A DNA stretch of 64,000 bases, taken from NCBI RefSeq assembly GCF_016586355.1, contig NZ_BLYI01000062.1:62001-126000 (forward strand), read 5' to 3'. Under the pieces are notes generated by a model that saw nothing but the letters and a program-made list of their open reading frames with translations, was not told where the DNA came from and ran no database searches. The position numbers and the translations under genes were made by a program. The DNA is from Anaerostipes butyraticus (lineage in GTDB: Bacteria > Bacillota > Clostridia > Lachnospirales > Lachnospiraceae). Of the stretch, positions 4,923-49,952 are shown one piece after another (the first letter of the stretch is position 1; every line of letters begins with the position of its first letter).

Positions 4923-4997
4923 ACGTTCCTTCGGTCCCTTCCTCATTCCATGTATACAAACCCACTCAGCCTTCTTTCTATACTACAAATAGCACTT

Positions 4998-5504
4998 TTA
5001 CAAAAGCTGCATATTGGCGACTATCGCTTTCATTTTACCTACTTTTGAATTATTAGGTACCATTTCTATCAATTTATTCTTCCTTTGAGCAAGCATCCAA
5101 TTTCTTCCAACATAAATAAATCTTTTGTTTTCAAAACGTTCTCTTTGTTTTTCATTTTTAAAGTTTATCTCTGCCTTAATTCTATTTCCATAAAGTAAAC
5201 TCTCTATTCCAAATCTCTTACCTTTTAATTTATCCACAGCAAATTTTAACTTTATTGAAATCTCATCTTCTGATGTCTTCTCCCAATTAACCGAATAATT
5301 CTCTTTGGGAATACTAATAGAAACATCAATTTTTTCAATTTGAGGTACAAATTTTGAATTCAATTTACCACACATATACATTTCTGCATTTTGAATTTTT
5401 ATATCCGAGATTTGAAATATACCTCCTTTCCACTCGTCTACTAATTGATTTTTTTCATCATACCATATAATTCTATTTGCATTATAAGCCAAAAACTCTC
5501 CCAT
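4998..5504 (-). CDS. Small unknown protein of the teichoic-like locus
   Basis: A 168-residue protein with no signal peptide or membrane segment. I do not recognise a family. The pattern of alternating hydrophobic and charged residues suggests a beta-sandwich, and it resembles in style the non-catalytic beta-rich linker regions of the neighbouring TagF-like proteins. It has a good ribosome site (AAGGAG) and starts 10 bases after the stop of the GT2-TagF fusion gene, so it is co-transcribed with it. It could be an accessory or binding domain split off from such an enzyme. AT content matches the neighbours. Confidence 0.6.
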   Translation of the reverse strand: MGEFLAYNANRIIWYDEKNQLVDEWKGGIFQISDIKIQNAEMYMCGKLNSKFVPQIEKIDVSISIPKENYSVNWEKTSEDEISIKLKFAVDKLKGKRFGIESLLYGNRIKAEINFKNEKQRERFENKRFIYVGRNWMLAQRKNKLIEMVPNNSKVGKMKAIVANMQLL

Positions 5505-5514
5505 ATATTACTCC

Positions 5515-8193: not shown

Positions 8194-8209
8194 CTTTCTA
8201 TCTCCTTTC

Positions 8210-9313
8210 TTATCCTCTTTCTGTCAATTGTCCTATCTTTTGACTGCATATTTCTTTCATCCGTCTAAGTTTGTCATTCCATCTGATGAGCTTTTTAAAA
8301 TATTCAATTAATATAGATAGACATATCGTAACAATTAATAAAAATATCAGAATCAACCCTGCATAACGAAAAGAATATGTTAATTTATTAAACCATATTT
8401 CTCTTATAAACGTATGGATATAGAACATATTCGCAGAATGTCGTCCTAAAAACTCAAAAATTGAATTTATTTTTCGCTTTTTATAAAAACAATCATATAA
8501 AATTAAAATCATTATTACAGGTATCAGACTATTAACAATTAGTCGTATATGTGCCCATCCCCAAGGATGTGGCCGTAAATAAATCAATACTATAAAAATA
8601 AAATAAATAATCACTCTTTTTATCCAACAAGTAACTTTATTAAGTCTAATCCATTGATAGATTTTTTGAAACCATTTCAAATCTGCAAAACAAATGCCCA
8701 GAGGAATAACAAGCAGCCAACGGTTCATATTATCAACTTCTTCTACTCCCAAAAGCAGGCAAATTATTGTTAATGGAATAATTAGTATACTATATTTTTT
8801 GTACAAAGCTATTGCAAATGGTAAAACAACAATAAATAGGACTGTTAAGCTTAAATACCACCAAGTGGTTGTCAACATTGGAGTATCAAAAAAGCTGCTT
8901 AATCCAAACATGTCTAAAATAAAATTACAAACATGATTTACAATACCCTGCCCATATTCATCATATGACATAAATGCAGACACAATTTGACAAAAGAAAA
9001 AAGGAATCCAAAATCCTCCCAATAACCCAATATAGCGTCCTGCTACAAATTGAATTTTTTCTTTTATAGTTAAATCTAAATTCAAATTCTTATTTTTTAT
9101 CGTTAATGTCATTCCAAATACTGATAAAAACGCAAACATACCTACACATATATTCATACTGTCAGAAATAAACATTCCCGTCTTCTGTGACAACGGGAAA
9201 AAAACAACATCTACTCCACTTAATCTTGAATAGCTGGAAAAGCAATGATAACAGTATAAAAAAATTATTGCAAAGCCCTTCATTAACAAAGTATCATTTT
9301 TTGAAAAATTCAT
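8210..9313 (-). CDS. Second acyltransferase 3-like membrane protein
   Basis: A 367-residue polytopic protein with about ten membrane segments. The N-terminus (LLMKGFAIIFLYCYHCF) and the C-terminal EFLGRHSANMFYIHTFI are typical of acyltransferase 3 proteins that modify surface polysaccharides. It is the first gene of the AT-rich operon: the promoter at 9355-9383 is just upstream and the GT2-TagF gene begins 16 bases after its stop. The ribosome site is GAGGCG. It is only distantly similar to the acyltransferase at 135-1190, so they probably have different acceptors. Confidence 0.75.
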   Translation of the reverse strand: MNFSKNDTLLMKGFAIIFLYCYHCFSSYSRLSGVDVVFFPLSQKTGMFISDSMNICVGMFAFLSVFGMTLTIKNKNLNLDLTIKEKIQFVAGRYIGLLGGFWIPFFFCQIVSAFMSYDEYGQGIVNHVCNFILDMFGLSSFFDTPMLTTTWWYLSLTVLFIVVLPFAIALYKKYSILIIPLTIICLLLGVEEVDNMNRWLLVIPLGICFADLKWFQKIYQWIRLNKVTCWIKRVIIYFIFIVLIYLRPHPWGWAHIRLIVNSLIPVIMILILYDCFYKKRKINSIFEFLGRHSANMFYIHTFIREIWFNKLTYSFRYAGLILIFLLIVTICLSILIEYFKKLIRWNDKLRRMKEICSQKIGQLTERG

Positions 9314-9354
9314 TCTATCGCCTCTAAATCTGATTTAGTCTATCATTTCACATA

Positions 9355-9383
9355 ACTTTAACACATTTGTAACATTTACGCAA
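9355..9383 (-). promoter_or_regulatory. Promoter of the acyltransferase/TagF operon, with WalR-like box
   Basis: On the minus strand: -35 TTGCGT (9378-9383), 17-base spacer, -10 TAAAGT (9355-9360). The spacer and -10 hold TGTTAC-AAATG-TGTTAA (9358-9374), which fits the WalR consensus TGTWAH-N5-TGTWAH. A site there would block RNA polymerase, so repression would be expected if real. The promoter call is moderate, the operator call weak. Confidence 0.5.
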
Positions 9384-9562
9384 TCTTTCACTCTGTGCAG
9401 AGATACTTTTTTTCTATAGGCAGTTATATTCTTTCAAATCTATCTTTTCCTCATTTTATTTTTTCTTAAATTTTACGTATTTTTTTCATTCTATCATTTC
9501 TATCATTATTAGGCAATATTTCGACTTTTTGAATTATTTAAAATCTTACTTTCAAAAATTAA

Positions 9563-9605
9563 AAGAAGTCTGCTGATAACCCAATAGTCATCTTTCAGAC
9601 TTCTT
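9563..9605 (-). terminator. Terminator of GT cassette 1
   Basis: Perfect 10-base stem AAGAAGTCTG/CAGACTTCTT, partly paired interior, followed on the minus strand by TTTTAATTTTT. It lies 12 bases past the stop of the GT2 gene. The same outer stem ends the paralogous cassette at 16832-16876. Confidence 0.85.
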
Positions 9606-9616
9606 ATATAATATAT

Positions 9617-10567
9617 TTATTTTCTGTTAAGTATTTCAGCGATAATATATCTTGGCCGTTGCTTTGTTTCACTGTAAATTTTACCAATATACTCACCCAC
9701 AATGCCAAGACCTAATAACTCGATTCCACCCAACAGCCAAATTGAACAAGCTAAAAATGTCCAGCCTCCTATTGTAAATCCGAATATTTTTCTTATTAGA
9801 GAATAAATAATTACCAAAATACTTCCTGCAAAAATAAGAAATCCTGTCATGGCCACAAACCGAATAGGTTTGACACTAAAAGAAGTAATACCATCTAATG
9901 CAAATGCAAGCATTTTCTTCAATGGATATTTTGATTCTCCAGCGAAACGTTCATTTCGATTATAAGCAGCTGTCGTATATCTATATCCTATCAGTGGAAC
10001 AATTCCTCTCAAAAACAGATTCACTTCTTTAAACTTCTCTAATCCATCCAATGCTCTTTTGCTCATCAGCCGGTAATCGGCATGATTATATACAGCATCC
10101 ACTCCCATAAACGCTTGAAATTTATAAAACGCAAGTGCAGTATTTCGTTTAAAAAATGTATCCGTTTCCCTCTTATTCCTTACGCCATATACAATATCAT
10201 AGCCTTCGTAGTATTTTTCTACAAATTTATCTATGGCATTAATATCATCTTGAAGATCCGCATCGAGTGAGATTACCATATCTGCATATTCCTTTGCTGT
10301 CATCAATCCTGCCAACAATGCATTCTGATGTCCCCTGTTTCTGCTAAGGGCCACTCCGCTGAATATTTCATCTTTTTGATGTAATTTCTGAATAATATCC
10401 CATGTATTATCCTTGGAACCATCATTCACAAACATAATCCTGCTTTCTCTAGAAACCGCTCCATCCGCAATCAATTCATTCATTTTCTTCTTTAACTGCT
10501 TTGCTGTTTCTTCTAACACTTCTTCCTCATTATAGCAAGGAATTACCAAATATAATATATCTCTCAT
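9617..10567 (-). CDS. GtrB-like polyprenyl-phosphate glycosyltransferase (cassette 1)
   Basis: A 316-residue GT2 enzyme of the DPM1/GtrB/CsbB type: VNDGSKD at 47-53, LDADLQDD at 101-108, and two C-terminal membrane helices around 230-290. Such enzymes load a sugar from a nucleotide donor onto undecaprenyl phosphate on the cytoplasmic side. The start ATG overlaps the stop of the upstream GT-C-like gene (ATGA), so the two are translationally coupled. The protein is nearly identical over long stretches to that at 16909-17859, yet its codons are more AT-rich. The sugar is unknown. Confidence 0.88.
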   Translation of the reverse strand: MRDILYLVIPCYNEEEVLEETAKQLKKKMNELIADGAVSRESRIMFVNDGSKDNTWDIIQKLHQKDEIFSGVALSRNRGHQNALLAGLMTAKEYADMVISLDADLQDDINAIDKFVEKYYEGYDIVYGVRNKRETDTFFKRNTALAFYKFQAFMGVDAVYNHADYRLMSKRALDGLEKFKEVNLFLRGIVPLIGYRYTTAAYNRNERFAGESKYPLKKMLAFALDGITSFSVKPIRFVAMTGFLIFAGSILVIIYSLIRKIFGFTIGGWTFLACSIWLLGGIELLGLGIVGEYIGKIYSETKQRPRYIIAEILNRK

Positions 10568-12762
10568 TTTATCCTTGAAACCTCCCTCTTTCCAATTGTT
10601 TTATAAAAAAATGCACTAATAAGGATTTCTATAATTATTACCATACTCCAAAGCAAAATAAATATCCTTTGTGAAAAAATCGAATCTACATGCTGATCAG
10701 ATACTATAAACGTCAAATCATTAGATTCTTCCTCTTTATTTCCAACATATAAACAACCATTAAGATAATAATCAGGCGGTTCTTTATAATCTTGATATAA
10801 AGGATACGTTGCCGTATTTACTCCTATATATTCTTCATATTGCCGATATGGGCGAATAGTTAAAAGCAATTTTTCTTTATTTACACGTATATCGCCTAAA
10901 TGGAACGCATGCATTTTATTATCTTGTATGCTGTCAGAAGAAAATTTTTCTTTATGAATAACATCTCCTTTAGTATTTAGAATCGACAGTATATATTCTT
11001 GTTCTTTTAACTTTTTAGGATTTACAAAATTAATTTCTATAGTATTGAAGTCTCCTTCTGCCATAAAAGACTGTGCTACACCCTCATATCCTATTTCTTC
11101 AATTTTTCCTTCTCCATACGCAATTGTCTGCTTTACTCTCAAATCTTTCTGTTTGCTTTTTTCTGACACATATTGAAAATATGACAAAGTTCCTACTATC
11201 ATCGTAAAAGCTATAACCAAAATACTTAATCTTTTCATCCACAATTGTAATGATTGGCTATTAAAACAAGTTTCTTTTTGATCAACTGTCTGAATTTTTA
11301 TACAATTAATCTTTTTGAATTCTGTTAACTTTGTTATGGCATATGATTCAATGATATAAAAAATTGGCAAAAAGCAGAGACTATACTTAGGTTTCACTTC
11401 CCAAAAAAGGTAAAAAATAATTCCACCTAGAATTGTAATAAACATCCATGCATTAATATTTTCTTTTCGCTTCAAAGTAATAATCCCTGCTAAAAAGGCA
11501 AATATCAACATTGTACAGCGAACTATTTGAAGCCAATAATTAAAAGCTTTGGCCGATCGGCCTATCGTATATTTATATAAAGTATTATAACTTTCAACCG
11601 TCGTTTGCAGCGATTCAGTATACGCTGCCGATGACCAACTTTTACTTATTTTTTTCATAAATAGTTTTTCCAGGCCTAAAATTCCTTTTTCTTTTACTCT
11701 TTTTTTTATCGTACTTATGTTTTCATTTACTTTTTTTTCATAAGTGTTCTGAGCCTTTGTATTATTGTTATCCTCAGCTGTATACATTCCATTTTCACTT
11801 AATCCTAATTTTATCCAATGAGTTATTGGATATTCGTATCTCCTATCCCTTACTCCATATATGTTCGTTATGCTATTGCTTAATATAATTGCACAAATCA
11901 AACCAATGGCTATAAAACTTATCTTTTTAAAAAACAAATGCATTGTATTTTTTATAAATAAAAAAATACAAATTGCAATTAGCGGAAAAACTGCCGTCAT
12001 ACGTATCTTTCCGCCTATAAAAATAACAAAAGCTGCTAAAACTAAAAACAAATCTCGTTTTCTCTTTGATTCTGTTCTCTCCGCATAAAGAAACAGTAAA
12101 ATACCACCAAGCATAAACGGCATACATAATGTATCTGAATAATAATGAGATGACCAGCTAAAAAGCATTGGATCCACTATGAATGCTATCAAACTAATAA
12201 TTCCTGCCTTCAAAGACCATAAACAGCAAATTCTATAAGTAAACCATGCGGATAGAAAAATCATTAGTATATTAAAAATGATTCCAACATCGTTATAATT
12301 TGTAATCCCAAAGTATTTTGCAATAGAAAACACAAAATACAAAAGGATTGTAAGAGGCTGCTGATTTGGATAACCAGCATAATACACAATGTTAGAAATT
12401 TTCCCTGTTTCAAGCATATCCACTGCTTCTGCATGAACATTAATTAAATCGTACGGAGGAACATACTTAAGATAAATTCCAAAGATAATGAGATTTACTA
12501 ATATTAATGCTAATAAAACTACGCTGATAATTCTTAATGCTTTTTCAGAACACGATTTTATCACTTGTGCAACAGCTATAAAACCAGAAACTAAAACAAT
12601 AATCCCCAGTATCAAAATCGAAGGATTATATTTTTCTATAGATGGTACTCCTCCAATATAAAACAACCCCTGCCAGATGCAAATTCCCATTAAGACCATT
12701 AGAATCATAAGTAAAATTCTATAGAAGCTGTTACAAATTTTTAATCTTAACCCGTCTTTCAT
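10564..12762 (-). CDS. Multi-spanning GT-C-like glycosyltransferase (cassette 1)
   Basis: A 732-residue protein with about twelve membrane segments, a large loop in the middle and a C-terminal extracytoplasmic beta domain followed by a last helix. The layout matches GT-C enzymes (PMT/ArnT/GtrC-like) that use polyprenyl-phosphate sugars outside the membrane. Early residues YVPPYDLINVHAEAV carry an acidic loop after the first helices, as expected for GT-C catalytic loops. It is partnered with the GtrB-like gene that overlaps it by four bases. Paralogue of 17869-20055. The acceptor is presumably a surface polymer. Family assignment is from topology, not from a firm motif. Confidence 0.7.
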   Translation of the reverse strand: MKDGLRLKICNSFYRILLMILMVLMGICIWQGLFYIGGVPSIEKYNPSILILGIIVLVSGFIAVAQVIKSCSEKALRIISVVLLALILVNLIIFGIYLKYVPPYDLINVHAEAVDMLETGKISNIVYYAGYPNQQPLTILLYFVFSIAKYFGITNYNDVGIIFNILMIFLSAWFTYRICCLWSLKAGIISLIAFIVDPMLFSWSSHYYSDTLCMPFMLGGILLFLYAERTESKRKRDLFLVLAAFVIFIGGKIRMTAVFPLIAICIFLFIKNTMHLFFKKISFIAIGLICAIILSNSITNIYGVRDRRYEYPITHWIKLGLSENGMYTAEDNNNTKAQNTYEKKVNENISTIKKRVKEKGILGLEKLFMKKISKSWSSAAYTESLQTTVESYNTLYKYTIGRSAKAFNYWLQIVRCTMLIFAFLAGIITLKRKENINAWMFITILGGIIFYLFWEVKPKYSLCFLPIFYIIESYAITKLTEFKKINCIKIQTVDQKETCFNSQSLQLWMKRLSILVIAFTMIVGTLSYFQYVSEKSKQKDLRVKQTIAYGEGKIEEIGYEGVAQSFMAEGDFNTIEINFVNPKKLKEQEYILSILNTKGDVIHKEKFSSDSIQDNKMHAFHLGDIRVNKEKLLLTIRPYRQYEEYIGVNTATYPLYQDYKEPPDYYLNGCLYVGNKEEESNDLTFIVSDQHVDSIFSQRIFILLWSMVIIIEILISAFFYKTIGKREVSRIK

Positions 12763-12818
12763 TCATTACCCTCCTGAATTCAAAATCTTTATTGATTTTT
12801 CTCCTGAATCCCTTATGT

Positions 12819-12860
12819 TTTAATATATAATAAATAAATATTAATTTATTATATATTAAA
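12819..12860. repeat. Perfect 17-base inverted repeat at the cassette 1 promoter
   Basis: Arms at 12819-12835 and 12844-12860 are perfect inverted copies, all A/T except none, separated by 8 bases. The right arm covers the -10 element (12848-12853) of the cassette promoter. Since transcription would begin near 12841, the RNA cannot form the full hairpin, so a DNA-level operator is more likely than an attenuator. Confidence 0.7.
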
Positions 12861-12876
12861 GGCAGGAATTTGTCAA
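12848..12876 (-). promoter_or_regulatory. Consensus promoter of GT cassette 1
   Basis: Minus strand: -35 TTGACA (12871-12876), exactly 17 bases, -10 TATAAT (12848-12853). A full sigma-70/sigA consensus. The -35 lies in the loop of a hairpin downstream of the amidase gene and the -10 in the right arm of an inverted repeat. Confidence 0.85.
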
Positions 12877-12893
12877 AAAGTCCCTGTCTTTAA
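12856..12893 (-). terminator. Hairpin behind the amidase gene
   Basis: An 11-base stem with one G-U pair (12856-12866 with 12883-12893) and a 16-base loop, about 30 bases past the amidase stop. There is no proper U-run after it (TATATAATAAAT), so it may be a weak terminator or an RNA 3' end stabiliser. The loop holds the -35 of the next promoter. Confidence 0.45.
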
Positions 12894-12924
12894 TATGTTT
12901 CTTACTTTATTATTATTTTTATTT

Positions 12925-15900
12925 CTATGCTTTTTTCAAACTATCTATAAGTTTAGAAATAGAAACCCCGTAATTTTCAGATGTTGCCCATCCGTATCCG
13001 TTCGGATTCTCTTTCTGTCCCAGAATCTCTACATACTGTGCACATCCCCTCTTTATTCGATCAAATCTTGGATCTACACAGCTTTGCTTTAACTCATCAG
13101 TTGATGCATATGCTTTTAAATGCTGAATTTGTGCACGTACTCCTGTCCTGACATCTTCAAAACTTGCTCCACATGCTCCTCCGTCTGTAGCTCCAATTCC
13201 CGCAAAATTATATTGTTCAATTTTAACTTGTCCGCCAAATTTCAGCCATCCAGTTTCTTTCATTGTTTGTGCCCATGCTACCTCTGCTTTTATCCCTTCT
13301 GCCTTGGCCTCCTCATAATATATACGTGCGAAATCTTCTATTGTTGCAGCTCCACCTTCTTTCAGCGCTTCCGATGGATATTTGATAGATGAATGCTTTT
13401 CATAAAACCTTACCATTTGCTGAATCGTTGTAGAACTATTTCCGGAAATTTTGTAAAAAATATTTCCATACTGACTAACCGGAATCAAAACTCCATTCGC
13501 TCCATAATATTTATGATTGGCAAAACCATTTTTTAATAATTCTCCAGTACTTTCTCTGAAATAATAAGATTTTCCATTTATTATTGTTTCACCTTTTGCC
13601 ATGGCTCCATTACTTTCATAATAAACTCTTTTATTTGGAAAATTGTACCATCCAGTCACCATGGCTCCTGTTAACTCTTTAAACAAATACCATTTCCCGT
13701 CAATTTTTTTCTCACCTTTAACCATGGCTCCATCCATTCCATAGTACACCTTTTTGTTTGTGAAACTATGCCATCCGGTTTTCATAGCCCCTGTCAAATA
13801 TTCGAAAAAGTACCATTTCCCATCGATCTTTTTCTCTCCTTTGACCATCACCCCATCACTTCCATAGTACACCTTTTTGTTTGTGAAACTATGCCATCCG
13901 GTTTTCATAGCTCCTGTCAAATATTCGAAATAATACCATTTCCCGTTGATCTTTTTCTCTCCTTTGACCATCACCCCATCGTTTCCATAATATACTTTCT
14001 TGTTTGTGAAACTATGCCATCCAGTTTTCATAGCTCCTGTCAAATATTCGAAATAATACCATTTCCCGTTAATCTTTTTCTCACCCTTAACCATGGCTCC
14101 GTCACTTCCATAGTACACCTTTTTATTCGTGAAACTATGCCATCCGGTTTTCATAGCCCCTGTCAAATATTCGAAATAATACCATTTCCCATCAATCTTC
14201 TTCTCACCTTTGACCATGACTCCATCACTTCCATAGTACACCTTTTTATTCGTGAAACTATGCCATCCTGTTTTCATGGCTCCTGTCAAATATTCAAAAA
14301 AGTACCATTTACCTTTAATCTTCTTTTCACCTTTGACCATCACCCCATCGCTTCCATAGTATACTTTCTTGTTCGTGAAACTATGCCATCCTGTTTTCAT
14401 AATTCCCTTTTTATCAAAGTAATACCATTTTCCATTAATTTTCTTCTCCCCTATTACTTTTTGTCCATTTTCATAATAATATCGATTTCCTTTGCTATCT
14501 GTCCTCCATTCACCTTTACTTATCCCTAAATATTTGGCAATCCCTGACGCATCCGCCACACCCAGCTTTTTAAGACCTGCCTCCGTCTTAAGATATGTAT
14601 TCACTTCCTCTGTATTCGTAATAAAAGCATGTTCAATAATAATACCTGGAATATTTCTCAGCTTGCTGTATCGCTGTACAGAATAATAATCCGCCGCACT
14701 GCCATCTGCATACTTCTTATTATTCACGGCATTTTTTGAATAAATAGGTGTTGCCCGTTTCGTTATTCCGATTTTTTCTAATTCGTCTAAAACAGCACCT
14801 GCCAGTTTTTCACCTTCTGACGCAACTGCCGGTCTCCAATTTTTGTTCTGAACAATAACTTCTGCTCCTTTCGCTCTGGATGAAGTAAAAGAATTCAAAT
14901 GAAAACTGACAAAAATCTGGGCACCTGCATCTGCTGCTGCATTCACTCTGTCTTCAATGCAGTCGGAACTTGCTTTATTAAACGGACACTCTGGTCCCGT
15001 TCTCGTCATATAGACTTCAACTCCTGCATATTGCTCCAATTCTTCCTTGCAATACTTTGCAATTTTTAATGTAAGTTCCTCCTCTTTCAGCCCATTCGCA
15101 TGAGCTCCAATGCTGTTCGCATCATGTCCGGGATCTAATGCCACCATTATTTTTCCAGAACGCGCTGCCCCAATCCTTGTCCTGCCAGTCGTTTCATTCT
15201 GAGCTTCATTCAAAGCTGCGGCAATACTTGTCTGCGCCTTTGCAGTACCATTTTCATCAATTACAGCCACAGAAGCACCAGCTTCTCCACTTCCATCATT
15301 GGTAATTGGCTGCAATTCATCAATTCCCTCATATTTTTTATTTACGCCAAATTCTGCCTGGACATTCAAATTAGATAGACTGATAGTTTCTTCCTTATCT
15401 TCTGCAATGAGATGAATCTTTTCTGCTTTATATATACCAGAGGCTGCGCTGCTGTATTTCTTTTCAAAGAGATACACGCCATCTTTCTGTTTTGAAAGCA
15501 GCCAGTTTTCTTTCTTTCCGGACTCATCTTTTACCGTTAAAGTAAGTGTTTTAACCCCGCTTATCGCTTTTTCAAAAGCAATAACGATTCTTTGTGTCCC
15601 TGGGGTTTCTAAATACGGACTTTCTATGTACACAAAATTAATTTTTCCTGCAGCGATAGATGAGGTTTTCTCTTCCTCTTTTTCTTCCATCTGCTGAGAA
15701 TCTTTATTTGCTTCTAATGCTTCTAAATCTCTTTTCTCCGTACCTGCAGTGTTGTTTGTTTCATTTTTTTCTTCTGGCATATTGGCTGTGCCATTCTTCT
15801 CCTGCTCAGTTCCCTTTTTCTCTAAGTTATCTGTCTTCTCTTCCGTCGCTGTTTCCGATGATTTTTGATCTATATCCTTCTGTGTAATCGCCGTACTGTT

Positions 15901-43199: not shown

Positions 43200-43979
43200 C
43201 TATAATTCCCAGATTTCCCAGAGTCTGTCATCCAGATATCTTCTCAGAATCTCTTCCCCGTCAAATCCGATGCCATGATAGAATTCTTCTGCTACGGCTC
43301 CACCGATTGCTCCAAGGGTATCACAATCACAGTTCAGCTGAAACAGATTTCTCATAAAGCCGTCAAAAGAACTGCTCTCATAAAAACATCTCATGGCTGC
43401 CGGCACGCTTCCCATGCAGGTTTCATTCCAGCGGTAATGTTTTCTCAGATAATTCAAATCCTTATCTATGCTGTATTCATAAGTTTCTGCCGGATACTGC
43501 TTTATCACATAATCATAAATTTCATCTTTTGTTTTTCCATTCTTTGCCATCCAGATACATACCGCCGTGGCAACGGCTCCCTTGATTCCCTCCGGATGAT
43601 TATGAGTCACTGCTGCCGTTTTTTCCGCTTCCCGGACCACATCTTCCAAACGGTTAAAATATTCCCCTATAAAAGACACTCTCATGGCGGATCCGTTGCC
43701 ATAACTGTTATAAGGTTTTGTATCTTCTCCCAGTATCCACCTGCGGAACTTTCCCCCATATCCGCAGTCAGGGTAATGCCTTCCGATTTCCTTCATGGTT
43801 TTCACAAGATCTGCTCTCGTTATGACCGCTTTTTTGACTGCCAGTGTCATCACCGTATCATCCGTAAATTCACAATCTTTCGTAAACAGTTCGCAGTTCT
43901 GTATATCCAGCCGAAACGGCCGTTTAAATTCAAACCGGGACCCTGCAATATCTCCCAGTATGGCTCCAAGTACTGCCAT
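43200..43979 (-). CDS. ADP-ribosylglycohydrolase (DraG/ARH family)
   Basis: About 259 residues. The fold is the all-helical DraG/ARH family with metal motifs TDDT at 39-42 and NCDCDTLGAIGG near 235, which hold the two Mg/Mn ions that cut ADP-ribose from Arg, Ser or nucleic-acid acceptors. I start at ATG 43979 (GGGGAAAA upstream); the frame is open further but would run into the VWA gene. It begins one base after the VWA stop. It is the last gene of the eight-gene operon from 49952, which also has a macrodomain gene, so reversal or processing of ADP-ribosylation is a likely theme. Confidence 0.92.
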   Translation of the reverse strand: MAVLGAILGDIAGSRFEFKRPFRLDIQNCELFTKDCEFTDDTVMTLAVKKAVITRADLVKTMKEIGRHYPDCGYGGKFRRWILGEDTKPYNSYGNGSAMRVSFIGEYFNRLEDVVREAEKTAAVTHNHPEGIKGAVATAVCIWMAKNGKTKDEIYDYVIKQYPAETYEYSIDKDLNYLRKHYRWNETCMGSVPAAMRCFYESSSFDGFMRNLFQLNCDCDTLGAIGGAVAEEFYHGIGFDGEEILRRYLDDRLWEIWEL

Positions 43980-43980
43980 A

Positions 43981-44643
43981 TTATTTTTTCCCCTTTCTCT
44001 TTCTGTAATCTTTCTCGATTGCCTCTTTCCATCTGCCATCAACCTGAGCCATAGAAGCTGCTGCCCGCATACAGCTTAAGGTTTCTTCCACTGCCTGATA
44101 ATTTACCGCGATTCCCTGGCTGTCATTTTGAAAAGTAACGGATCGGTCTGCTCGGATTCCCATTCTGCCTGCTTCCGCCACCGCGTCAATATTGGCGCCC
44201 AGAAACAGGAACTCCCATCCGTAGATTTCCTTTTCTTTTTCAATCATGGATTTTACTTCCTTATATCCATATTCCCGGCTGGCATTTTCCATTCCATCTG
44301 TCATGATAACAAAAATCACTTTCTCCGCTCTTTTTTTCTCCGGCAGATGTTTCTGGATATTCGCCATCTTTTGGATTGTCTTTCCCACTGCGTCCAGCAG
44401 CGCCGTGCAGCCTCCTACATAGTAATCCCTTTCCGTCATCGGCAGAATTGTTTTTAACGGAAACCTGTCATGAATCACATTACAGCGGTCATCAAACAAA
44501 ACAGTCGTTACATTTGCCTTGCCTTTCTGCTTTTTCTGTTTCCGGATCATTCCGTTAAACCCTCCGATGGTGTCACTTTCCAGCCCTGCCATAGAGCCGC
44601 TTCTATCTAAAATAAAAACCAATTCTGTTAATCCTTTTTTCAT
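43981..44643 (-). CDS. VWA-domain protein
   Basis: A 220-residue cytoplasmic protein consisting of one von Willebrand A domain with an intact MIDAS motif, D13-x-S15-x-S17 (LDRSGSMAG), Thr in GCTALLDAVG, and Asp in VIMTDGMEN. VWA proteins often work with AAA+ ATPases as adaptors for metal insertion or complex remodelling; a Ycf46-like AAA+ gene is two genes upstream. Tail is basic (YRKRKGKK). One base separates it from the ADP-ribosylglycohydrolase start. Confidence 0.9.
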   Translation of the reverse strand: MKKGLTELVFILDRSGSMAGLESDTIGGFNGMIRKQKKQKGKANVTTVLFDDRCNVIHDRFPLKTILPMTERDYYVGGCTALLDAVGKTIQKMANIQKHLPEKKRAEKVIFVIMTDGMENASREYGYKEVKSMIEKEKEIYGWEFLFLGANIDAVAEAGRMGIRADRSVTFQNDSQGIAVNYQAVEETLSCMRAAASMAQVDGRWKEAIEKDYRKRKGKK

Positions 44644-44720
44644 TCTGCTTACCTTCCTTTCTTTTGATAAGCTTATGATACCGAATTTCTGAATTGGTTT
44701 GGTCGCATGACAGGAGACAT

Positions 44721-45779
44721 TTATTCTCCCAGTGTCGGCTGATGAAATGAAAACAATGCTTCGTTAATCTCAAAAATATCATAATCTTTTTTTTCAATGA
44801 AATAACGAATGATCACATCAAATTTTGAACAGTTGGAAAATGCGTATCCTGCTTTCATCAGCAGATCATTGGTTTCCTCCAGAGACAGTTCCAGCGCAAC
44901 CGCAAATGCGATCACTGTCTTTTTATTTGGCGTATAATCCGGATGATTCCGAATCTTTGAAAAATGTCTCCGGTCAATATTTGCCTTCTTGTATACATAA
45001 GAATCCTTCAAGCCTCTCTCATCGATCATCCGCAGCAGTGCCTGAGAAAAGGTTTCTTCTTTTTTTCTCAGCAGCTGTTCCAGAAAATTCATCTGAACTT
45101 CCTGATCTGCTCTCTGTTCAATGCGCTGTGCGGCTCTTTGCGGACGCGGCATGGATGCCGTAACCGGTATATTATCCAGTTTCATCCGAAATTCTTCTTT
45201 TGCCGTTTCCGGGTAATCTTCATCTCCCGGAATCCTTTCATCATTTTCTTCTACATAGTGATCGTCTATGTAAGCTTCTATGGATTCTGACAATTTCCTG
45301 CTGATAGCAAAAGAATCCTGATCATAAAGAACCAGATATATTGTCATTTCATGATCCATAAGAAACTCACTGATGGCTCTTACCGCAGTTCTCATGGCAA
45401 TCTCTTTTGGGAAACCGTAATTTCCTGCGGAAAGCAGCGGAAACGCTATGGAATCCAGACGGTAGTCTTCTGCCAGACGCAGGGTTTCCATATAAGTATG
45501 ATAGAGAATTTCTTCCTCTCCTCTTTCCCCATTGATCCATACCGGTCCCACAGCGTGAAAAATATACTGCGCAGTCAGACGAAAGGCAGGAGTTGCCGCT
45601 GCCTTTCCCAGTTCACATCTTCCAATCTTACGGCAGGCTTTGTCCAGCTTTTCTTCCCCTGCTGCCAGATAGATGGCCCGGCTGGTTCCGCTTCCCTCCA
45701 GCAGTTCCTCGTTGGCCGGATTTACAATCGCATCGGCTCTGACTTTTGTAATATCATTTCTGATCATGAAAAATGGCAT
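44721..45779 (-). CDS. Macrodomain protein with C-terminal HTH-like domain
   Basis: A 352-residue protein. Residues 1 to about 175 form a macrodomain (NPANEELLEGSG near 20-31, GPVWINGERGEEE, SAGNYGFPKEIA), the fold that binds or hydrolyses ADP-ribose, O-acetyl-ADP-ribose or ADP-ribose 1''-phosphate. An acidic linker follows (to about 225). The last 125 residues (VYKKANIDRRHFSKIRNHP, KKTVIAFAVALELSLEETNDLLMKAGY) look like an XRE-type helix-turn-helix, a fusion common in Lachnospiraceae. It could couple ADP-ribose sensing to DNA or RNA binding. Ribosome site GGAAA; 37 bases after the DUF1257-like gene. Confidence 0.88.
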   Translation of the reverse strand: MPFFMIRNDITKVRADAIVNPANEELLEGSGTSRAIYLAAGEEKLDKACRKIGRCELGKAAATPAFRLTAQYIFHAVGPVWINGERGEEEILYHTYMETLRLAEDYRLDSIAFPLLSAGNYGFPKEIAMRTAVRAISEFLMDHEMTIYLVLYDQDSFAISRKLSESIEAYIDDHYVEENDERIPGDEDYPETAKEEFRMKLDNIPVTASMPRPQRAAQRIEQRADQEVQMNFLEQLLRKKEETFSQALLRMIDERGLKDSYVYKKANIDRRHFSKIRNHPDYTPNKKTVIAFAVALELSLEETNDLLMKAGYAFSNCSKFDVIIRYFIEKKDYDIFEINEALFSFHQPTLGE

Positions 45780-45816
45780 GTCTGATTTCCTTTCTTATAT
45801 TTCTCTTTTGACCGGG

Positions 45817-46287
45817 TTACACATTAAGGACGATCTTAATGGTATTATCCTCTAATACCTCTTCGGAATGAACTTCCATCCCTTCTGACGAAAGATGCTC
45901 TTTTAATCTCTGATACGTAAACTCCTGAACATTAAATCCATACTCTTCCTCCAGGGAAATCAATTCCTGCACCAGCTCTTCCGACTCCGGCTGACCGCCT
46001 AAATCCACTTCATAGACTCCCTGGAAATTCTTGCTGTATACCAGCTCTTTCTCTTCCGCGGAAGCCCGGATGGCTCCGTCTTCCTCCAGAATCACTTCCA
46101 TTCCATGTTCCTCTAATGTTTTGATCAGCAGACCTTCATCTGTAAAATTCGTTTCAATCCTGCTGGCAGTCTCTCTTCCCAGCATTTTCTCCTGCTGGCG
46201 GAATTTCAGAAATGTTCGAATACTGCTTATGCTGCATGTGCCGGTTACCGCGACAGACAATGCAACCATCGTTAATGTCATTGACAT
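45817..46287 (-). CDS. DUF1257/Ycf35-like protein with N-terminal anchor
   Basis: A 156-residue protein. A short hydrophobic N-terminus (LTMVALSVAVTGTC) is followed by a domain with the order seen in DUF1257 (Ycf35): IETNFTDEGLLIKTLEEHGMEV, a central beta part, and a C-terminal helix and strand ending NTIKIVLNV. The assignment is my reading of the pattern, supported by the neighbours: Ycf46-like AAA+ 9 bases upstream and DUF2997 in the same operon, a set that recurs in cyanobacteria and other bacteria. Function unknown; probably a substrate adaptor or target of the ATPase. Confidence 0.6.
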   Translation of the reverse strand: MSMTLTMVALSVAVTGTCSISSIRTFLKFRQQEKMLGRETASRIETNFTDEGLLIKTLEEHGMEVILEEDGAIRASAEEKELVYSKNFQGVYEVDLGGQPESEELVQELISLEEEYGFNVQEFTYQRLKEHLSSEGMEVHSEEVLEDNTIKIVLNV

Positions 46288-46296
46288 AATTTCCTC

Positions 46297-47949
46297 CTAA
46301 AAATCAAGCAGCCGTCCTCCCCGGCTTGTATTAATATCTCCTTCTTTATCTTCTTTACGCGCCTGCTCACTGACCTGATACTGCTTCAGATCTTCTTTGG
46401 CAGTGGCGGCTACGGCTCTGATATTGGCCCATTCTCTCAGCTCTTTGATCTGCTCCTTCTGCGTTACGGACAGAGGAATCGTCATGGCCACTGCCTGCTC
46501 AATATCTTCCGGCAAAACCTTTCGCTTCTCAAAAAAGGCTTCATACAGCGCATTGTAAATTACCTGTTCAATCTCCGCTCCCACAAATCCCTCACTGATC
46601 CGTGCCAGATGTTCCAGAAGTTCTTCTGTTATAACAAAGTTTTCCCCTGCTCTGCAGGAACAGATTTTCTTCCGGATATGCAGTTCAAAAATCTTCTTTC
46701 TCTCAGAAAAAGTCGGCAGATCCACAAAAAAGATCTCATCAAAGCGGCCTTTTCTTAATAATTCCGGCGGCAGGGTCCTGATATTGTTTGCTGTGGCAAT
46801 GACAAAAACCGGAGATTCCTTCTCCTGCATCCAGGTTAAAAAGGAGGCGAAAACTCTTGCGGAAGTTCCGCCGTCCCCGGTGGCTTCCCCGCCGGAGGCA
46901 AATCCTTTCTCAATCTCATCAATCCATAAAATCGACGGCGCCACCGCTTCTGCCGTGGCGATGGCTTTTCTCATATTTTCCTCTGAACTTCCCACCACGC
47001 CGCTGAAAATTCTTCCCATATCCATCTTTAACAAAGGGAGTTCCCAGATTGCGCTCATGGCTTTAGCGGTAAGACTTTTTCCGCAGCCGGGCACACCTGT
47101 GATCAGCACTCCTTTTGGCGCCGGCAGATGATAAAACGCTGCTCTTTCACTCCATGAATCTTTCCTTTTTAACAGCCACTTTTTCAGATTTTCCAGTCCT
47201 CCAATATCTTCCAGACTTAAATCTGATTTGATAAATTCCAGAATTCCTGTCTTCCGTATGACCTGATTCTTTTCTTCCATCACCGTCTGAAATGCTTTCC
47301 GGTTTAACCCTTTCAGCTCCACCATAGCCTTGGAAAAAGCGTTCTCCGCTTCCTGAAGGGTCAGGCCCAAAGCTGCCTTCGCCAGACTTCTTCTCTCACT
47401 TTCGTCTAAATCCACCTGGATAACATCCGCATTTGTTTCAATCAGATCATCCATGACAGAGTGTATCTGATCTGCCGTCGGAAGAGGAAATTCCAGGACT
47501 GTGATTTCCTTCTGCATATCTTCCGGCAGAACTAAAACCGGAGATAAGAACACGATGGTTTTCATATAAGTTCCTGTTGACCGGCTGTTGGACAGATAAT
47601 CTCTCAGCCTGCGGATCAGGGCATAATCCGGCGCCCGGTTCCCGGTTCCGAAAAACACATGAAAATCCTTTAATACAAGAATCATATTTTCTTCTGTTTT
47701 CTCTGCAAAATCAATGGCCGCGGAGGGATGGACCGTTTCATTCTTTTTTCCTGCTTCTCCCTTTTTCCGGATACCGGTCGTCTGACTCCAGACATATACT
47801 TCCCGTCCACTTTGAAAAAATTCTGTATTTTCTGCCACGTCATAAATCATCTGCAGCGCACGGTCTTCTTCCCAGGTAGGGATATACACAAATGGGAACC
47901 TTGCCTTTACCAGATTGGCAAACTGTGCGTCAATCCCATGATATTTCAT
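46297..47949 (-). CDS. Ycf46-like AAA+ ATPase
   Basis: About 550 residues. The N-terminal 260 have the Ycf46 style (ANLVKARFPFVYIPTWEEDRAL, MILVLKDFHVFF, KTIVFLSPVLVLPEDMQKEI, a degenerate ATPase-like region). The AAA+ core has Walker A GVPGCGKS near 288, Walker B ILWIDEIE near 341 and an arginine finger region RKGRFDE near 403. I start at ATG 47949 (GGAGG ten bases upstream) rather than 47973. The start overlaps the radical SAM gene by 20 bases. The C-terminus ends in GGRLLDF, nearly the same as the end of the HhH membrane protein two genes upstream (TGRVLDI). Presumably a remodelling ATPase of the operon's complex. Confidence 0.88.
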   Translation of the reverse strand: MKYHGIDAQFANLVKARFPFVYIPTWEEDRALQMIYDVAENTEFFQSGREVYVWSQTTGIRKKGEAGKKNETVHPSAAIDFAEKTEENMILVLKDFHVFFGTGNRAPDYALIRRLRDYLSNSRSTGTYMKTIVFLSPVLVLPEDMQKEITVLEFPLPTADQIHSVMDDLIETNADVIQVDLDESERRSLAKAALGLTLQEAENAFSKAMVELKGLNRKAFQTVMEEKNQVIRKTGILEFIKSDLSLEDIGGLENLKKWLLKRKDSWSERAAFYHLPAPKGVLITGVPGCGKSLTAKAMSAIWELPLLKMDMGRIFSGVVGSSEENMRKAIATAEAVAPSILWIDEIEKGFASGGEATGDGGTSARVFASFLTWMQEKESPVFVIATANNIRTLPPELLRKGRFDEIFFVDLPTFSERKKIFELHIRKKICSCRAGENFVITEELLEHLARISEGFVGAEIEQVIYNALYEAFFEKRKVLPEDIEQAVAMTIPLSVTQKEQIKELREWANIRAVAATAKEDLKQYQVSEQARKEDKEGDINTSRGGRLLDF

Positions 47950-48559
47950 TGCTGCTGTGCCTCCTTTTTTCATAATCTCTCAATCCTGCCAAATCTCCCA
48001 TTCCGTTGATCCATATTCTGCCGTCTTGATCAATTCGGATTTCAAAAGAATTCTTCCAGGACATGATGTCTTCCTTTTTGTACCGGTCTGTCAGAAAGTG
48101 AAATCTCTGATTGGAAGATCCCACAAGCGGCCGGTCAAAACTTTTCTTTTCTTCCTCAAAAGGACCATCAATCAGAAGATCCGTTCTTTTCAATAATTTT
48201 CTTTCTGCCGGTCCTTTTTTCCTCAGTTCTTCCAGCCGGTATCCGGTAAATGTCAGAACGCTCAATCCATGCTTTTTCGCTTCTTTTGCCAGCTGTGCCG
48301 CTTCCTGCGCCTGATCAAAGGGCTCCCCTCCTAACAGAGTAAGCCCTTCCAGGTCTTTCCTCTTTCCCGCTGCACTCTGAATGGCCCGGCGCAGATCTTC
48401 TTTTATGTCTTCTATCTCTATCCACCGGCCTTTTTCCGAATCCCAGGTGTCCTTTGCAAAGCATCCGGGACAATGATGGCTGCATCCCTGCACCCAGACA
48501 CAATAGCGCAGTCCCGGGCCTTCCGCGGCTGTCTCCCTTAAAATTCTGTGAACCCTCAT
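47930..48559 (-). CDS. NrdG/PflA-like radical SAM enzyme
   Basis: A 209-residue radical SAM protein with the cluster motif C26-x3-C30-x2-C33 (GCSHHCPGC) and LLGGEPFDQ as the SAM-binding GGEP motif. It is of the short activase class (NrdG-like), but no ribonucleotide reductase or glycyl radical enzyme gene is near. It lies between the HhH membrane protein (2 bases upstream) and the AAA+ gene (overlap). No ribosome site is visible, so translation is probably coupled. A dedicated protein substrate in the operon is a reasonable guess; both flanking products share a C-terminal tail. Confidence 0.88.
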   Translation of the reverse strand: MRVHRILRETAAEGPGLRYCVWVQGCSHHCPGCFAKDTWDSEKGRWIEIEDIKEDLRRAIQSAAGKRKDLEGLTLLGGEPFDQAQEAAQLAKEAKKHGLSVLTFTGYRLEELRKKGPAERKLLKRTDLLIDGPFEEEKKSFDRPLVGSSNQRFHFLTDRYKKEDIMSWKNSFEIRIDQDGRIWINGMGDLAGLRDYEKRRHSSNEISWD

Positions 48560-48561
48560 GA

Positions 48562-49722
48562 TCAGATATCAAGCACACGTCCGGTGTGCTTCCTCCTGTC
48601 ATCTTTTGGTACAGGAACGGCTTCTGCCATTTTTAAAATCTGAACCGCCATATGAGGTTTAACACCCAGAAGATCGATCAGCTCTTCCACTGATTGAAAT
48701 GCTTCTTTTTCTTCTCTGTACCCAATGGCCTTTTTTGCTAAAATGGCATTAATTCCAGGAAGCTTTGCCAGTTCCTCCTCTCCGCATCGGTTGATATCAA
48801 TCTTTTTTACCGAACGGTCAGGTTTCACATCCACTGCCCGGCCGGAAAGCGGCTTCTGTACTTCTTTGCCGGCCGGTGCTTTTGATACCGGCACTGTTTC
48901 TTCCGGCACAGATTCTGAATGCTTCTTCTCTGCTTTACGGCGGTTCTTTTCTCGATGACGCTCCATCACCCTGGCTTTCATAACTTCTTCCTCTCCTGGC
49001 CGGATTTTTTCATAAGCCTCCAGATACAAAAGATATTCTTTCCGCTTTGAGAAGCTGTGAATAATGCTTGCAAACCAGATCAGGTATACAATCCTTCTCA
49101 TTTCCGGCAGAACTGTCATCATAAAACTGTCCGAAAACCATCCCTGCCTGTCATGAGCATAAGGAATCACGATCATGCACAAAAGAAAACCGCACAGCAT
49201 AAGAAGATACGCTGCCATCCATTTCATATATTTCTTCACATGCGCTTTTTTTACGGCACAGCCAAAGCCTGCCCAGGCAAACATCGGCAGAGACAGCCAC
49301 GGCCATTTTACTTTTCTCAGACTGCCATCTGATAAGTCAGTGACCAACGTCTCTTTTGTATTTGTTTCTTTCCGGATTCTTTCCCGGAGCGCTTTGTCTC
49401 TCTGGCTGACATCTGTTCCATACATTTCAAATGTCATCCAGTATTCCTTTCTGAATTTCAGCGCGGAAATTATCCCTGCTCCCCACTGTAATATGAAAAT
49501 CAGAATCTGGAGCATCATAAAATTAACTCTGATTGTATTGACCACATTAAACAGCTCAAATATAAGGTTTGCCAGGTTAAAAGGGCCTGCAAGAAAAAAC
49601 AGCAGGAAATACCCTTTCCACTGTTTCGTATCCTGATACATTCTCCAATAAGTCACACAGCTCAGGCCAAAAAAAGCAAAACCTGTTTTGGGAATGTATT
49701 TCACTTTTTCATTCTTTCCCAT
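48562..49722 (-). CDS. Membrane protein with C-terminal helix-hairpin-helix
   Basis: A 386-residue protein. The N-terminal 230 residues hold about six membrane helices in a loose 2+1+2 layout. A Lys/Arg/Glu-rich stretch follows, then a ComEA-type helix-hairpin-helix pair (DINRCGEEELAKLPGI and AFQSVEELIDLLGVKPH, about 315-370). The end is TGRVLDI. HhH elements usually bind nucleic acid but in such proteins may bind protein partners. Ribosome site GAGGAG. Second gene of the operon, 20 bases after DUF2997. The membrane part would anchor the AAA+ complex at the membrane. Confidence 0.8.
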   Translation of the reverse strand: MGKNEKVKYIPKTGFAFFGLSCVTYWRMYQDTKQWKGYFLLFFLAGPFNLANLIFELFNVVNTIRVNFMMLQILIFILQWGAGIISALKFRKEYWMTFEMYGTDVSQRDKALRERIRKETNTKETLVTDLSDGSLRKVKWPWLSLPMFAWAGFGCAVKKAHVKKYMKWMAAYLLMLCGFLLCMIVIPYAHDRQGWFSDSFMMTVLPEMRRIVYLIWFASIIHSFSKRKEYLLYLEAYEKIRPGEEEVMKARVMERHREKNRRKAEKKHSESVPEETVPVSKAPAGKEVQKPLSGRAVDVKPDRSVKKIDINRCGEEELAKLPGINAILAKKAIGYREEKEAFQSVEELIDLLGVKPHMAVQILKMAEAVPVPKDDRRKHTGRVLDI

Positions 49723-49742
49723 AATGTTCCACTCCTCTTTTT

Positions 49743-49952
49743 TTATCGTTTTATTTTCATTTCCGTTTCCTGAATCTGCGTCAATTCTTCTTCTGTCTCA
49801 TAATATTCTGACGTATAATCAGAATCCACTGTCTGCGCATGCAGCATTTTTTCCAGTAATTCTACATATTTCAGGCAGCCTTTTCCTTTGATGCCGAACG
49901 TCTCAGCATCAATCTTTCCATCCGGATGGATACAAATTTCAATCTGTTTCAT
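49743..49952 (-). CDS. DUF2997 small protein, first gene of the operon
   Basis: A 69-residue protein: MKQIEICIHPDGKIDAETFG, then KGKGCLKYVELLEKML and an acidic tail with SEYYETEE. The order of a beta hairpin with PDG, the GKGC motif with one conserved Cys, and the tail is that of DUF2997, a family found next to DUF1257 and Ycf46-like genes. A small ubiquitin-like or modifier-like role can be imagined, given the conserved Cys, but nothing proves it. Ribosome site GGAAAAGGA. Confidence 0.8.
   Translation of the reverse strand: MKQIEICIHPDGKIDAETFGIKGKGCLKYVELLEKMLHAQTVDSDYTSEYYETEEELTQIQETEMKIKR

Follow-up and report, generated by a model that had tools for sequence, protein, structure and literature searches.

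Ycf46 and Ycf35 are cyanobacterial and plastid proteins, and their ATPase and DUF1257 families, together with the DUF2997 family, are related to those of the bacterial gene module described here. In cyanobacteria, DUF2997, ycf35 and fed7 form a conserved cluster, and mutating fed7 leaves the cells sensitive to stress (PMC4284462). Synechocystis ycf46 (slr0374) lies in a multi-stress-responsive operon and its inactivation lowers EcaB activity (PMC7496141, citing a 2015 study). Marine and freshwater red algae differ in whether they have ycf35 and ycf46 (PMC5940233). An AAA-ATPase/subtilisin pair has been described as a toxin-antitoxin system on SGI1 (PMC5006074). The present module is located in Anaerostipes butyraticus (GCF_016586355.1, contig NZ_BLYI01000062.1, positions 62,001-126,000 of the forward strand), a stretch of 64,000 nucleotides (nt) that is termed the window and supplies all coordinates below. 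Eight minus-strand genes run together there. Genes 1-5 encode a DUF2997 protein, a membrane protein with a helix-hairpin-helix (HhH) domain, an NrdG-like radical SAM enzyme, an AAA+ ATPase and a DUF1257 relative; genes 6-8 encode a macrodomain protein with a helix-turn-helix-like region (macro-HTH), a VWA-like protein and an ADP-ribosylglycohydrolase (ARH).

Genes 1-5 are one widely shared, horizontally spread bacterial module, and the shared C-terminal tail of its AAA+ and HhH proteins is the new and most informative feature, which renders the module testable. A scan for gene 4, using one genome per species, supplied the best 80 of at least 571 confirmed relatives; adding the window plus two further loci of relatives (L020 and L021, L numbers being our locus labels), and leaving out the near-identical sister locus L019, gives a set of 83 loci. 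The full set of five core genes was found in 68 of the 83 and in 47 of the 48 with at least 4 kilobases (kb) on either side of the AAA gene, L065 being the exception. A first-pass phmmer search of 113 loci and the window returned 74, 88, 81 and 85 open reading frame (ORF) matches for genes 1, 2, 3 and 5, respectively. Pairwise distances over 68 loci correlate with those of the AAA protein at 0.84 for the radical SAM enzyme, 0.77 for DUF2997, 0.72 for DUF1257 and 0.44 for the HhH protein. The order of the core genes is shuffled (2-3-4-5-1 in Gastranaerophilales, 4-5-1-2-3 in L050 and L105) and the flanks differ. By record title, the carriers are Bacillota, Gastranaerophilales/Melainabacteria and Actinomycetota, with some lone titles (‘Bordetella’, ‘Acinetobacter’) that look like mislabelled metagenome bins. 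Two actinobacterial conjugative plasmids also bear the module: L275 is annotated in the order AAA, hypothetical, DUF2997, HhH, 4Fe-4S, and L276 has the identical order, mostly without annotation. Closer to the window, gene 5 is present in two of 61 relatives, the window genome counted, and the N-terminal half of gene 4 is matched at E<1e-70 in three and at E<=0.001 in 13 of 392 genomes of the order. DUF2997 is found in eight of 398 genomes of the window’s phylum, the other seven having no match to the module radical SAM or HhH protein, and in two of 198 genomes of the phylum of L104, the second of which (L285) has an AAA gene with neither a radical SAM nor an HhH match. No description of the module or of combinations of its parts was found in the open-access literature, most subscription papers lying outside that scope; thus, as a unit, genes 1-5 are previously undescribed in the literature searched, as the first-pass annotation (made from the sequence alone) had suggested for the whole run.

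The tail follows the pattern R-x-[LIVMF]-[DE]-[FLIVMWY]-COOH, and the resemblance between the ends of the gene 4 and gene 2 products was first seen in alignment column counts. Across the 83 loci, the AAA+ protein bears it exactly at the terminus in 70 and no more than two residues from the end in 80; the three untailed proteins run off the contig (L075), end GGRALTF (L100) or have GGRVLAF further in (L107). HhH-family copies carry the tail in 94 of 99 cases, whereas it was seen on two of 222 DUF2997, radical SAM and DUF1257 proteins and on one of 790 other called ORFs of at least 100 amino acids (aa), the latter a membrane Mrr-type nuclease within the L096 cluster (PF04471 E=1.5e-19, membrane part judged by eye). 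Thinning the loci at 70% AAA identity left the tail on 26 of 27 AAA and 25 of 26 HhH proteins. Glycine precedes it at -6 in 70 and at -7 in 67 of the 70 exactly tailed ATPases; at -6, the 94 HhH tails have Gly in 51 and Glu in 30. The residues preceding the HhH tail are variable, and all six Arg codons are used for the tail Arg. The tail is independent of the gap to, and the kind of, the next gene, so an origin as a by-product of overlap with that gene was rejected. Such a pattern suggests that selection acts on a short C-terminal motif common to proteins whose sequences are otherwise unrelated. By eye, a third HhH-family copy lacking the HhH domain still ends GRIIDF (L039), and the tail ends HhH-family proteins containing TPR in L095 and L096. 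In L071 (3290-8332), seven HhH-family ORFs, one of 87 aa and all tailed, precede the radical SAM gene, and a single 177 aa ORF lies among them.

The families named in the first-pass annotation were right, both small proteins included, the Ycf46 type of gene 4 being presumed. The gene 1 product matches PF11211 at 58.6 bits, above the Pfam gathering cutoff of 24.1; the columns G12, G23 and C26 are invariant in the DUF2997 family, and its AlphaFold2 model is beta-beta-alpha-alpha with a predicted local distance difference test (pLDDT) score of 83. Gene 5 (model pLDDT 76) alone gives no match to PF06868 (DUF1257), and over 11 genomes this profile gave just two matches, of 17.9 and 14.4 bits, both under the cutoff of 22.2, but the assignment is recovered at the level of the family: eight of 50 members match PF06868 (best 7.1e-5), hhalign aligns the family with DUF1257 proteins of the cyanobacterial phylum (probability 97.4, E=1.2e-11), and an iterated search from cyanobacterial-phylum DUF1257 seeds alone retrieves gene 5. 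By these profile comparisons, gene 5 is a divergent relative of DUF1257 and not Ycf35 itself. A viral structure library gave one weak match to the DUF1257-like model, an unnamed entry (E=8.2e-4), and a sequence search of solved structures gave nothing below E=0.05.

The name Ycf46 for gene 4 is our assumption, and no model used bears that name. The gene 4 family profile matches ATPases adjoining DUF1257 in the cyanobacterial phylum at 592 and 582 bits, and no model or record names those Ycf46 either. The protein matches classical AAA, with AAA_3 and AAA_5 matched weakly. Walker A (GVPGCGKS), Walker B and the LRKGRFDE region are conserved over 84 sequences, and because these are kept, the family is probably active. 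In gene 3, the CxxxCxxC motif (C26/C30/C33) consists of residues conserved across the family. Gene 3 covers nearly the whole NrdG model TIGR02491, but at 115.9-116.3 bits it stays under the equivalog cutoff of 126.1, and a canonical NrdG (173.9 bits) lies elsewhere in the same genome; on these two grounds gene 3 was ruled out as the cell’s own NrdG. NrdD is absent both from genes 1-8 and from the conserved set, a distant NrdD partner not having been searched for. Because the genome has its own NrdG and the distances of the radical SAM enzyme correlate best with those of the ATPase, gene 3 probably serves the module. Its match to prokaryotic viperin (NF038283) is 29 bits against a cutoff of 180.

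Several described arrangements share parts of the module. In L173 and L174, from the cyanobacterial phylum, an ATPase gene (presumably ycf46) is paired with DUF1257; there was no radical SAM or HhH match, the ATPases end QRLEF and QRMEF, and DUF1257 of that phylum is without the hydrophobic N-terminal insert found in the module family. Triads of AAA, DUF1257 and DUF2997 on Rhizobium phage RHph_I4, Paenibacillus polymyxa plasmid pPPM1a and an IncC plasmid have three families in common with the module; however, no HhH membrane protein was seen in them, their tails are variable, and a radical SAM gene is present in pPPM1a and not annotated in the RHph_I4 and IncC stretches. Gene 2 shares a HhH_3-type domain with ComEA (TIGR01259, 37.2 bits) but is far under the cutoff of 152 bits, adds the tail and lies in a different operon. 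The pairing of MoxR with VWA differs in that gene 4 is a classical AAA protein and the VWA protein of gene 7 is not kept with the ATPase. Unlike the module, the cyanobacterial DUF2997-DUF1257 clusters include the 4Fe-4S ferredoxin gene fed7 (PMC4284462). SgiAT/IetAS resembles the module in a related AAA domain (PADLOC IetA, E=1.4e-24), in occurrence on mobile elements and in having an effector partner (PMC5006074), but the partner there is a subtilisin, and the eight genes here include no subtilisin or peptidase.

More distant relatives of the three families are spread over phages, plasmids and genomes of the cyanobacterial phylum. DUF1257 and DUF2997 occur together in 26 of 69 such loci, mostly with a family ATPase, and a few (e.g., L280 and L281) are without a called AAA gene; ATPase relatives at E<=1e-60 are present on 643 of 72,556 plasmid records. 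On an IncC plasmid (L328, CP009868.1, 4959-7547), AAA, DUF1257 and DUF2997 lie close together, both small genes being annotated ‘hypothetical’. A Treponema succinifaciens plasmid (L277, NC_015386.1, 7336-9491) pairs an NrdG-like radical SAM gene with a family ATPase ending VRKLEM, and this pair is flanked by contractile injection system genes (VgrG/Pvc8, baseplate V). On a Pseudanabaena plasmid (L327, 1586-7530), GrpE and Hsp70 form a single run with DUF1257, DUF2997 and the ATPase, which hints at a chaperone context. In L175 (3235-5913), a family ATPase of the cyanobacterial phylum is apparently split at Walker A by an intein-like insert, as judged by eye. The 570-575 aa partners in L029, L336 and L337 had been guessed to be subtilisins; none reaches any Pfam cutoff.

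From these sequences, it is about evenly balanced whether genes 1-5 encode a membrane-bound AAA+ remodelling machine in which the ATPase and the HhH protein dock by their shared tail on a common partner. Under this model, the gene 4 and gene 2 products would both dock on one receptor, most likely the DUF1257/DUF2997 pair of genes 5 and 1, and the ATPase would thereby be recruited to HhH proteins that are anchored in the membrane and possibly bind DNA. The gene 3 enzyme would modify one component, the candidates being the invariant Cys/Gly region of DUF2997 and the Gly-Gly-Arg of the ATPase tail. A comparable case is the proteasome, whose various regulators attach to one core through a C-terminal motif that they share. 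The complex is likely to be located at the membrane because at least one hydrophobic segment is present in 89 of 99 HhH-family ORFs and an N-terminal one in 61 of 79 DUF1257-like proteins. Docking itself, the protein that serves as receptor, the target of the radical SAM enzyme and any role in the cell are our inferences. The first-pass annotation had proposed a membrane-linked remodelling complex with a dedicated radical SAM modification, and this fits genes 1-5, given their co-occurrence and the second NrdG-like enzyme, but does not extend to genes 6-8.

Five points weigh against the docking model. The set of 83 consists of the relatives with the highest scores, and its loci are not independent. 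Four of the 99 HhH-family ORFs do not have even a loose tail (170 aa, 629 aa, 683 aa and one off the contig). In L167, which has AAA, radical SAM, DUF2997 and DUF1257 genes and no HhH match, the ATPase ends PGGRTDRR and is untailed. A fold search with the DUF1257-like and DUF2997 models matched no solved fold (best E 0.18 each), so the models of the small proteins indicate no tail-binding pocket. Finally, a more distant set of 66 AAA loci was drawn from phages, plasmids, cyanobacterial-phylum genomes and relatives of the window; among the close neighbours of the ATPase there, a relaxed tail was found on eight of 319 proteins, which is not significant (p=0.11).

An anti-phage or anti-plasmid conflict system is possible, though not probable; the membrane HhH protein would sense or hold incoming DNA, and the ATPase would activate or restrain swappable tailed effectors (HhH, TPR, Mrr). 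The sparse distribution given above for DUF2997 in the window’s phylum favours this, as do the presence of the module on conjugative plasmids, the repeated HhH paralogues (seven in L071), the tailed membrane Mrr nuclease in L096 with the TPR-HhH proteins of L095 and L096, and the distant similarity of the AAA domain to IetA models. However, PADLOC has no match for genes 1, 2, 5, 6, 7 and 8, and the only models reached by genes 3 and 4 are those of viperin, IetA and mad8, by way of their radical SAM and AAA domains. The flanks of the core loci, scanned as 96 of 132 picked proteins from 17 loci with no random control, gave few PADLOC matches, the clear ones being Ssp genes present as single proteins, and the 25 commonest of their 102 Pfam families belong mainly to transport, signalling and metabolism. 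The case for a defence-island setting of the module is thus weak.

It is rather unlikely that the tail is instead the substrate of the radical SAM enzyme on both the ATPase and the HhH proteins (e.g., at Gly-Gly-Arg or Asp), with docking secondary. The activases of the NrdG/PflA type, to which gene 3 is closest, act on glycines near C-termini, and this agrees with the near-invariant Gly at -6 and -7 of the exactly tailed ATPases. Furthermore, the tail is near-universal in loci bearing the module radical SAM enzyme, and such an enzyme stands beside the ATPase also in L277, with its tail VRKLEM, and in L326, where neighbours end SRVIHF and KRVIRL. Against this reading, only 51 of the 94 HhH tails retain Gly at -6; moreover, tail-like ATPase ends occur in loci with no detected radical SAM gene (L266 and L285), L167 has a radical SAM gene and no terminal tail, and the ATPase of L326 ends YRRISH.

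A broader form of the docking model, in which the tail is an address code for Ycf46-type AAA+ machines, is unlikely on present evidence. Tailed proteins, namely the membrane HhH, TPR and nuclease proteins here and SLOG and others in phage loci, would be loaded with the ATPase on a DUF1257/DUF2997 platform as exchangeable effectors, and the island would be a new membrane-bound, radical-SAM-matured surveillance or effector-loading system. In the 66 distant loci, the relaxed tail is enriched on the ATPases, 11 of 72 having it compared with 10 of 807 far genes (p=1e-7); a general tail rule is still unproven because the enrichment on neighbours is not significant. By eye, phage proteins in AAA-DUF1257-DUF2997 loci end RRAVKL and RNRKLKL, the two proteins of the L326 plasmid that end SRVIHF and KRVIRL follow the radical SAM gene and have hydrophobic stretches, and a viral contig (L263, 5306-16399) carries a family ATPase, DUF2997, and a SLOG (YspA) protein with two others ending KRIVEL/KRIVEV/KRIVEL. 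An 851 aa protein encoded on the same contig has a major vault protein shoulder domain. These single cases are hand-picked, and the general rule beyond the module is a suggestive lead. A genome-wide client tag was rejected: the exact DNA tail pattern occurs in 62 places in 11 of 12 genomes, 15 of them in the module, 18 in one repeated sequence (probably tRNA, by eye) and 29 elsewhere, compared with 28 for a reversed control pattern, and none of 10 of the 29 places, taken from five module-bearing genomes and one without the module, ends an ORF of at least 40 aa.

C-terminal hydrophobic tails are classical AAA+ degrons, and the tail could in principle be a degron or quality-control signal by which the ATPase extracts or turns over HhH membrane proteins, in keeping with the hydrophobic segments of most HhH-family ORFs. 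This is quite improbable given that the ATPase itself is tailed (80 of 83) and the conserved set has no peptidase gene.

Least probable by far is one eight-gene stress system joining protein remodelling to ADP-ribose removal or sensing, as the first-pass annotation had it: all eight genes are tightly spaced in two sister genomes, and one of 96 proteins flanking other core loci is an ADP_ribosyl_GH member, but among 113 core loci relatives of genes 6-8 (E<=1e-3) are confined to the window and its sister, and the cassette occurs without the core elsewhere in the order. The eight-gene unit was rejected on this basis. The flanking member is most likely a 306 aa protein of L111, about 4 kb from the module and with only slight similarity to gene 8 (E=0.0049). 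Genes 6-8 make up a cassette of their own, which has come to lie downstream of the module in this genus. Relatives of macro-HTH are found in 172 of 392 genomes of the order at E<=1e-20, many of them as partial-length matches. Near macro-HTH in 29 other best-scoring loci, a VWA relative was found in 23, an ARH relative in 10 and core genes in none, all of these counts being lower bounds with flanks of at most about 1.5 kb. VWA adjoins macro-HTH in those loci, or one or two ORFs intervene in a few. In 14 cassette loci with wider flanks, the sole core-family match, in L310, is to a radical SAM gene that follows an NrdD gene, and nine immediate upstream neighbours that were scanned are of varied kinds, two of the nine having ferredoxin domains. 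Accordingly, ADP-ribose removal or sensing is not supported as part of the unit. The AAA+/VWA chaperone pair fares no better: VWA goes with the macrodomain gene, and as a partner of the ATPase it was rejected, no relative of gene 7 being found in core loci beyond the window and its sister. The concern that the families might be adjacent only in this strain nearly holds for the eight genes, which are adjacent in two sister species, and does not hold for the five. In the sister species (L019, 12849-13690), ARH is split into two overlapping ORFs by a frameshift or an assembly error.

The ORF calls confirm the eight minus-strand genes at 43200-49952 and, as first described, spacing from overlap to 77 nt; from gene 1 to gene 8 the successive gaps are 20, 2, -44, 9, 37, 77 and 1 nt, taking 43979 and not the TTG at 44042 as the start of ARH. 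The ATG at 47949 may be the true start of gene 4. The features are listed in Table 1.

Table 1. Coordinates of the eight genes and the two C-terminal tails in the window, with the supporting matches.
Feature	Position	Strand	Evidence
Gene 1: DUF2997 protein, 69 aa	49743..49952	-	PF11211 E=5.7e-16
Gene 2: membrane protein, three hydrophobic segments, C-terminal ComEA-type HhH	48562..49722	-	PF12836 (HHH_3) E=6.9e-14; hydropathy
Gene 2 C-terminal tail GRVLDI (protein end ...TGRVLDI)	48565..48582	-	
Gene 3: NrdG-like radical SAM	47930..48559	-	PF13353 (Fer4_12) E=7e-37; Radical_SAM 1.5e-8
Gene 4: AAA+ ATPase, presumed Ycf46 type	46297..47973	-	PF00004 E=9.9e-30; phrog_8638 E=2.4e-140
Gene 4 C-terminal tail GRLLDF, one more G before	46300..46317	-	
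Gene 5: DUF1257 (Ycf35) relative with added N-terminal hydrophobic segment	45817..46287	-	Family-level profile evidence
Gene 6: macrodomain, C-terminal HTH-like region; outside the conserved module	44721..45779	-	PF01661 E=1.4e-31; HTH_26 only 0.21
Gene 7: VWA-like; outside the conserved module	43981..44643	-	PF00092 E=0.0023 (below cutoff); phrog_7371 E=8.8e-59
Gene 8: ARH family, 259 aa; outside the conserved module	43200..43979	-	PF03747 E=9.6e-31

A terminator-like stem (50040-50014) lies directly upstream of the eight-gene run. Gene 2 and gene 4 contain weak minus-strand terminator-like sites, of which one (46326-46310) falls at the gene 4 end, and the list of such minus-strand sites has none between genes 5 and 8, 12 terminator-like sites having been found against 6.7 expected. 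A single transcript across the eight genes is possible from this arrangement. The downstream neighbour of the locus is not conserved in the genus, and the upstream neighbour has at most 58% identity outside the sister species. Elsewhere in the window, positions 2001-14000 have a G+C content of 0.29-0.34, compared with 0.41-0.46 in the second half, and look like a foreign region.

Algal plastids and cyanobacteria retain Ycf46 and Ycf35, and the latter group also keeps DUF2997; the literature consulted describes these proteins as hypothetical or by mutant phenotypes only. A version that is compact, mobile and non-photosynthetic, and that has a dedicated radical SAM enzyme and visible tails, makes the question of Ycf46 function testable. 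If the tail were a general address code, the partners of this ATPase family would be findable from sequence alone.

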